Shown: piece after piece, positions 30,360 through 31,660 of the stretch
Numbering within the stretch: position 1 is the stretch's first letter
Layout: each line of letters starts with the position of its first letter
Assembly (NCBI GenBank): GCA_934045075.1
Contig: OW203730.1
Coordinates: 13,200,505-13,264,504, forward strand
Direction: 5' to 3'
DNA length: 64,000 nt
DNA from: Yponomeuta sedellus
Lineage: Eukaryota; Arthropoda; Insecta; Lepidoptera; Yponomeutidae
Program-made: the position numbers and the translations under genes
The notes under the pieces: model-generated
Told to the model about the DNA's origin: nothing
What the model saw: only the letters and a program-made list of their open reading frames with translations
Database searches by the model: none

Positions 30360-31200
30360 AGCCTGCGTTTCTGTCGGCGTCCCATGACTGCCATACGGTT
30401 CTAAATTACACGTTTGTGACAAGTCAAGACGGCAAGCAGGTTAATAGTTTGGATACAAACATGCGGTTTTAACTAAGTCATCGCGGCATCGCGAACCTCG
30501 CCTGTCAGAAGTCGCCCCACACCACGGTGCACTTGTTTGAGTCCACAATGCGAAGAAGGTTCATAGTTAGGATACAAACCTGCTGTTTTGACTCAGACGA
30601 TGGCGTCGGAGCGTCCGCGTCCCACCAACGCCTGTAGCAAGTCGTCCAGACCACGCGTTTGCCACAGACTATGTGGCAAGCAGGTTTTATTAAAACTTCG
30701 ATTACAAACCTGCGGTAGTAACTCAATTGACGGCCTCGGTGGCGCAGCGGTTTGGCACGCTGACTGTAACACCGAAGGTCTCGGGTTCGATCCCCAGCTG
30801 GGTCAAACTAGGAAACAAACTTTTCTAGTATGTCTCGGGTTTTGGATGTTATCTATGTATTTATTGTATTCAATCTATCGTCGAGTTAGCACCTATAACA
30901 CAACTAATTTAGTTGTACTTAATAAAGAGCTAACGAGATCTGTGTAATATTTCCATGAATATTTATTTATAGGACATGGCATTGTGACATTCTACGGTGG
31001 CAAGCAGTTTTAGGGATAAGAACCAAATCTGCGGTTTTCACTTAGTTCATGGCGCCAGCGCGTTTTACGTCTGGCATATGTCACCTCAAACCATGACAAG
31101 CTTGTCTCAATCTAAGATTAAAAGTTGGAATATAAACCTACGGTTTGGACTCAGACGGCGCCGGCGCGTCTCACGCTTGTCAGAAGTCGCTGCAGCATAA
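30360..31200 (-). repeat. Degenerate tandem array derived from the end of Atg16 exon E5 and its 3' UTR
   Basis: At least six further units follow the real exon, at about 30360-30431, 30432-30550, 30551-30673, 30674-30728 (split by a SINE, resuming at 30975), 30998-31105 and 31106-31196. Each has, in minus-strand order, a block like the exon end (LASVD...VVWGDL-stop), a block like GGGACGCGCCGGCGCC, and a block like AAAACCGCAGGTTTGTA. The spacing between the two best units is 130 bp. One unit (stop at 30505-30507) still reads VDSNKCTVVWGDF-stop; its neighbour reads CGKRVVW followed by changed residues; another has TGG changed to TGA. No convincing splice acceptor precedes the units. Confidence 0.75.
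30729..30975 (+). mobile_element. tRNA-derived SINE inserted in the Atg16-tail tandem array
   Basis: The element has an A-box-like TGGCGCAGCGG at 30740-30750 and a B-box-like GGTTCGATCC at 30784-30793, as in RNA polymerase III promoters of tRNA-derived SINEs. The body runs through a GTCGAGTTAGCACCT stretch to an AT-rich tail. A closely similar element lies at 45115-45365 and a partial inverted one at 44870-44945. It splits one unit of the tandem array, so the array is older than the insertion. Confidence 0.75.
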
Positions 31201-31204
31201 GTAG

Positions 31205-31306
31205 CGCGACGTGAGTCGCGTTTTTTATCGCCAAAAGTCGCGACTTTCCAGTGCATAAATAGTAACATTCTGTCACTACAGCGCTACAAAACACGCGACA
31301 ATAGCG
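31205..31306. mobile_element. Short MITE-like element, GTCGCGTTTT / AAAACACGCGAC ends
   Basis: The ends are inverted repeats (GAGTCGCGTTTT and AAAACACGCGAC) about 100 bp apart with an AAAGTCGCGACTTTCC core. A relative in the same orientation lies at 42763-42855. Both members abut decayed copies of Atg16 exon sequence. No transposase is encoded; the class is not assigned. Confidence 0.5.
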
Positions 31307-31319
31307 CTTTATATTACCT

Positions 31320-31499
31320 ACTAGCTGACCTAGCGAACTTCGTACCGCCTAACAGTTGATAGTTTTTTTTTTTCTCTCCGAACGAACCATCCTTGTACTT
31401 CAAGGAATATTCTAAAAAAGAATTAATGAAATCGGTTCACCAGCTCTCGAGATTTGAGCTTACCAACACATTCAGCGATGCATTTTTATATTATAAGAT
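31320..31499 (-). mobile_element. Interspersed repeat with CTAGCTGACC end, relative of 4215-4410
   Basis: The reverse complement of this block matches 4215-4410 along most of its length, including GAACTTCGTACCGCCTAACA, a homopolymer tract, and the CTCGAGATTTGAGCTTACCA region. The shared edge is the CAGCTAG sequence. The superfamily cannot be set from these short pieces; a Helitron-like or non-LTR 3' end is possible. Confidence 0.6.
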
Positions 31500-31511
31500 G
31501 ATCACTACGGT

Positions 31512-31660
31512 GTGTTTGTCCACGATGGCAAGGATATCAAAATTAGGATATGCGGTTTCGACTTGTTTGGTTTGTTCGTGGCGGGGGTATCCTACTTCTA
31601 TCAATGCGTACAAACCTGCGGTTTTGACTCAGTCGGTGGCGCCGGCGCGTCCCACGCCTG
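31512..31660 (-). other. Atg16: Atg16 3' UTR start, running into the first degenerate copy of the exon end
   Basis: Downstream of the TGA the minus strand reads ACAGGCGTGGGACGCGCCGG and then a block ending in CCGCAGGTTTGTA. The same blocks recur in the tandem copies further down. From about 31533 the sequence reads LAIVDKHTVV in translation, which resembles the exon E5 end [12 protein letters not shown], so the 3' UTR already contains a decayed copy. The true polyadenylation site is unknown. Confidence 0.5.

Follow-up and report, generated by a model that had tools for sequence, protein, structure and literature searches.

Decayed copies of the Atg16 gene end in tandem downstream of Atg16 in the moth Yponomeuta sedellus

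Short segments that duplicate locally in tandem and then degenerate form a general, minisatellite-like class of sequence. Tandemly duplicated alternative terminal exons make up another general class, and the Stellate array of Drosophila is a tandem array derived from a gene fragment. Here we describe a tandem array found in a 64,000-nucleotide stretch of the Yponomeuta sedellus genome (contig OW203730.1, positions 13,200,505 to 13,264,504; hereafter the window). We consider it likely that the array arose long ago, when the end of the Atg16 gene was duplicated locally in tandem, and that it has since decayed and been interrupted by mobile elements; we see no strong evidence of function. Among the titles found with narrow sets of literature search terms, none names such an array.

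The Atg16 gene end and the units downstream

The WD40 domain of Atg16 is encoded in the window by exons on the minus strand. The best PDB match of their hand-joined translation is the human-type Autophagy-related protein 16-1 (9h2q, E 4.4e-49; 5nuv, 8.2e-47). In a protein search, the Atg16 proteins of Manduca and of Spodoptera littoralis match the same translation over the whole query, at 87% and 89%, respectively (among the 120 matches listed of 222 found). The last exon is 96% identical to the end of Spodoptera Atg16 and 89% identical to that of Manduca across 28 residues (tblastn), and an acceptor, ...TTTTTTATCCACAG, can be read directly upstream of it. The C-terminus SGLL(A/S)SVDRGKRA(V/L)IWGDL, present in 3 of 12 fetched proteins (Manduca, Spodoptera and Chilo), is nearly the same as that of the last exon described here, and the wasp relative Orussus has a similar end, LLASVDRAKKAVIWGDHV. 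The Danaus model diverges after KRAV; the other seven of the 12 stop short of the C-terminal end.

Downstream of this exon, about six units, each decayed and roughly 110-130 bp long, follow one another head-to-tail on the same strand as the gene (Table 1). Each corresponds to the last part of the exon, LLASVD through the stop codon, and to ~74 nt of 3' UTR; both limits, near the LLASVD codons and ~74 nt into the UTR, were set by eye from alignments. Along the gene the order is U0 (the gene itself), U0b, U1, U2, U3, U4, U5 and U6. Self-comparison gives register points spaced 119, 130, 319, 109 and 478 bp apart; the spacings of 319 and 478 contain inserted sequence, and the uninterrupted ones, at 109-130 bp, amount to a roughly constant period. 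Pairs of units share 45-69% identity over their joint lengths. Two units, U1 and U3, are split by mobile elements that have copies elsewhere in the window. The element in U3 is presumably a SINE/tRNA, a label given from the look of its sequence.

Table 1. Features of the Atg16 gene end and the downstream array, in window coordinates
Feature	Position	Strand	Basis
Last Atg16 exon, coding part	31661..31754	-	tblastn of moth Atg16 ends; hand-joined WD40 translation matching ATG16L1
Stop codon of Atg16	31663-31661	-	
U0, parent segment: LLASVD through stop and ~74 nt of UTR	31587..31715	-	Unit alignments; leave-one-out 77.6 bits
U0b, probable unit remnant in 3' UTR, UTR part only	31534..31586	-	Place beside U1head; weak alone
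U1head, exon part of U1 upstream of insertion	31496..31533	-	Leave-one-out 2.3 bits; Smith-Waterman with U0b
Mobile-element fragment inside U1	31308..31495		88% identical copy at 4226-4418, opposite strand
Stretch beside U1 insertion, assigned to neither unit nor element	31196-31307		
U1, remainder	31114..31195	-	BLAST E 1.1e-11; leave-one-out 45.2 bits for 31114-31190
U2	30998..31122	-	BLAST E 4e-12; leave-one-out 55.5 bits
U3 head, weak	~30967-31006	-	No leave-one-out score; 32/1000 shuffles
Presumed SINE with tRNA-like head, inside U3	30727..30966	+	84% identical copy at 45113-45348; 93% identical 100-bp piece at 44850-44949
U3 tail, left of SINE	30685..30731	-	Leave-one-out 12.5 bits
U4	30560..30684	-	BLAST E 4e-12; leave-one-out 53.5 bits
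U5, frame-intact copy	30438..30559	-	BLAST E 8e-14
U6, decayed, array end	30345..30437	-	Leave-one-out 10.3 bits, 0/500; 9/1000 shuffles; profile E ~0.6

Statistical support and source of the units

When the exon end plus UTR is searched against the window by BLAST, four copies are recovered at E 8e-14, 4e-12, 4e-12 and 1e-11. The same query finds a fifth copy, the SINE-split U3, at E 0.012, and its next match, at another locus of the window, stands at 0.087. Profile searches recover these five again and add U6 as a marginal sixth. The four units score 66.8, 61.1, 61.1 and 59.7 bits and U3 scores 29.7, whereas the best of 1000 dinucleotide shuffles of the region reached 25.4 bits. Leave-one-out profiles were built for 10 pieces, each compared with 500 shuffles and 500 window pieces. 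Eight of them (U0, U1, U1head, U2, U3tail, U4, U5 and U6) exceed every shuffle and every window piece, U6 by a narrow margin (10.3 bits versus a shuffle maximum of 8.7) and U1head with a score of just 2.3 bits. U0b and U3head gave no leave-one-out score, while one shuffle did score in the test of each, as did three window pieces in that of U0b. In Smith-Waterman comparisons with U4+U5, the count of shuffles against U0b and U1head taken as one stretch was 0/1000; for single pieces it was 19 (U0b), 9 (U6) and 32 (U3head) of 1000. Control stretches gave 904/1000 for 31200-31300 and 45/1000 for the SINE stretch, which scores 13, above U0b and U3head at 12 each. U6, U3head and U0b are thus backed by position more than by score.

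Could the array reflect chance similarity or an assembly artefact? U0b, U3head and U6 are near chance when taken alone, but four units lie far beyond 1000 shuffles, and for these four chance similarity is rejected by the shuffle and window controls. The divergence among units is also unlike what we would expect of a collapsed or mis-joined assembly, and we regard the probability of either explanation as close to negligible. Tandem Repeats Finder reports no row in 30.3-31.7 kb at a minimum score of 40; this silence is expected because of the high divergence of the units, as copies less than ~70% alike are usually missed by the tool.

The first-pass annotation of this DNA had placed at least six degenerate units at 30360..31560, the best two 130 bp apart, with a further one inside the 3' UTR. 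Units derived from the exon end are indeed present there on the gene strand, as self-comparison and the shuffles of the four strong units attest. The count of at least six is correct, with U3 and U6 weak, and the register spacings contain the pair 130 apart. The range is better stated as about 30345-31715. The unit inside the 3' UTR is probable by its place beside U1head, but U0b alone does not rise above control.

The same annotation had derived the units from the Atg16 exon end and proximal 3' UTR, duplicated in tandem, and here our results agree with it. The coding half of the unit is conserved in the Atg16 of Manduca, Spodoptera and Chilo and aligns partly with human ATG16L1, and because of this we identify Atg16 as the source of the units. 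A different origin would be a dispersed repeat, either a mobile element or a satellite, which had taken up the end of Atg16 or had supplied the proximal UTR by inserting there, so that this locus would be one cluster among others. Dispersed repeats are abundant in the window, and nothing from outside it marks the UTR half as old gene sequence. However, BLAST, profile searches and self-comparison found no further copy of the unit elsewhere in the 64 kb, the coding half is conserved gene sequence and the units stand in head-to-tail order. We therefore judge a dispersed repeat improbable; that a genome-wide repeat unrelated to Atg16 supplied the coding half is unlikely. A search of viral contigs with one degenerate core pattern gave 0 matches, which is a poor test of dispersal.

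Coding state, UTR core and 3'-end signals

What might the copies do? They could be functional either as alternative terminal exons or as a selected UTR element with a regulatory or 3'-end role. On the coding side, U5 retains an intact frame of 17 codons to the stop, LLRIVDSNKCTVVWGDF-stop (30558-30505). Among the copies translated across the exon part (U2, U4 and U5; U0b, U3 and U6 were left out) it is the one in three that keeps the frame, U2 and U4 being broken. In U1 an insertion divides the exon part, of which the last 26 nt were translated and still give DF-stop in one frame. Searched against the array up to E 10, the sequence 31716-31800, which holds the acceptor and the start of the exon, gives no match. 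As the acceptor is uncopied and the frames of U2 and U4 are broken, the copies are not ready-made exons, and we reject alternative terminal exons as the principal interpretation. The copies, which may be transcribed but would have no coding function, probably lie in read-through 3' UTR or in flank. U0 and U5, the single pair tested by codon position and picked as containing the best-kept copy, differ at 6/4/10 first/second/third positions over 18 codons (one-sided p 0.046), a pattern that weakly supports a gene copy staying under coding constraint.

The UTR core is better preserved than the coding part, which would favour a selected element. Across U0, U1, U2, U4 and U5 the mean identity per column reaches 0.75 for the UTR core (57-108) and 0.61 for the coding part (15-56; p 0.010); with U0 removed it is 0.70 and 0.59 (p 0.065), so that the coding part is no better preserved than the core among U1, U2, U4 and U5. 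This test treated columns as independent and was confined to these five units and to columns 15-108; the outer UTR block, beyond them, has an identity of 0.48. The best-kept core is the first ~50 nt past the stop, with GGCGCC and CCGCAGGTTTGTA. It could hint, weakly, at a constrained UTR element, and beside the U5 frame it is the sole hint of function. Identity drops at both unit edges, however, as poorer alignment there would produce. Rfam families are absent from 30000-32300 at E 0.1.

In the orientation of the gene, AATAAA occurs in 29000-31700 at 30967, 30865, 30691 and 30021, and ATTAAA does not occur in that interval. The first three lie inside the span of the array, which would suit a role in 3'-end formation, but those at 30967 and 30865 lie within the SINE or at its edge; 30691 falls on a unit junction and 30021 beyond the array. 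Of eight hexamer variants scanned in 29900-31660, TATAAA, AATATA, GATAAA and AATACA occur, and variants stand nearer the Atg16 stop at 31492, 31490, 31315, 31313 and 31229. If Atg16 uses AATAAA, its UTR would span ~700 nt and reach into the array. An effect of the array on Atg16 3'-end formation is possible, but the earlier suggestion of altered or alternative 3' ends finds no positive support here, given the uncopied acceptor and the frame kept in one copy of three. Overall, we hold it very unlikely that the copies are functional. The fuller scenario, in which a constrained core was multiplied and SINE-borne AATAAA moved Atg16 ends inside the array, giving UTRs with a variable number of elements, is a slimmer prospect still.

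A candidate second terminal exon occupies 24144-24248 on the minus strand, where TTTCAG precedes QQVSELSPEEQAESEQPEVLGFLRGFTGDLLQRFV-stop; which residue comes first varies with the acceptor. A different C-terminal tail ends the Atg16 models predicted in Danaus (P0105) and Choristoneura (P0091, P0092), and this tail has a counterpart at 24149-24229. The Danaus and Choristoneura tails match it at E 1e-3 and 1e-4 (one window, composition correction off), and the next match of the Danaus tail elsewhere stands at 0.005. Protein searches with the tails, at limited protein length, each returned only their own source model, P0092 or P0105, and Pfam has nothing for the window ORF of the tail. The segment may be either an alternative Atg16 terminal exon ~7.4 kb downstream or part of a neighbouring gene fused by gene finders. 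Other repeats of the window are a 92-bp tandem repeat at 11052-12068 (eleven copies, 98% matches; probably recent), ~75 copies of TATG at 61549-61849, repeats in both orientations at 7899-8243 and 9865-10078 (~1.7 kb apart, 70-72% identical), and a 90-bp direct repeat at 39556-39645 and 39688-39777 (89% identical, ~43 bases between), in an Atg16 intron by position.

A proposed origin and comparison with known arrays

Based on these observations, we propose that a segment of ~130 bp, comprising the last 18 codons of Atg16, the stop among them, together with the adjoining ~74 nt of its UTR, was duplicated in tandem in place. Replication slippage or unequal exchange would then have expanded it to about six extra copies, which would have decayed by point mutation and small indels; the SINE and the second mobile element would have inserted afterwards, into two of the units. 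The divergence among units would imply an age of millions to tens of millions of years. The array is most likely a harmless, minisatellite-like decaying scar of this local duplication.

What are the implications of such a scar? It is a clear fossil case of the coding end of a gene, together with its UTR, becoming a local tandem repeat. It could lure gene finders into false terminal exons, and the duplication it records, at a conserved gene of autophagy, could be dated by comparison with relatives. Were the copies to alter 3' ends, the locus would show a repeat that carries a stop codon reshaping a UTR.

Like Stellate, the array arose from a gene fragment amplified in tandem, but it has few, decayed copies that adjoin their parent. 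It shares with duplicated alternative terminal exons the repetition of the 3' end of one gene on the same strand, and differs from them in that its copies lack the acceptor and keep the frame in one of the three translated. The array resembles the minisatellite-like duplications in its head-to-tail order, its single locus in this window, its unit of ~110-130 bp and its decay; unlike them, the Atg16 unit spans a stop codon and proximal UTR, and its copies are recognisable as a gene end.
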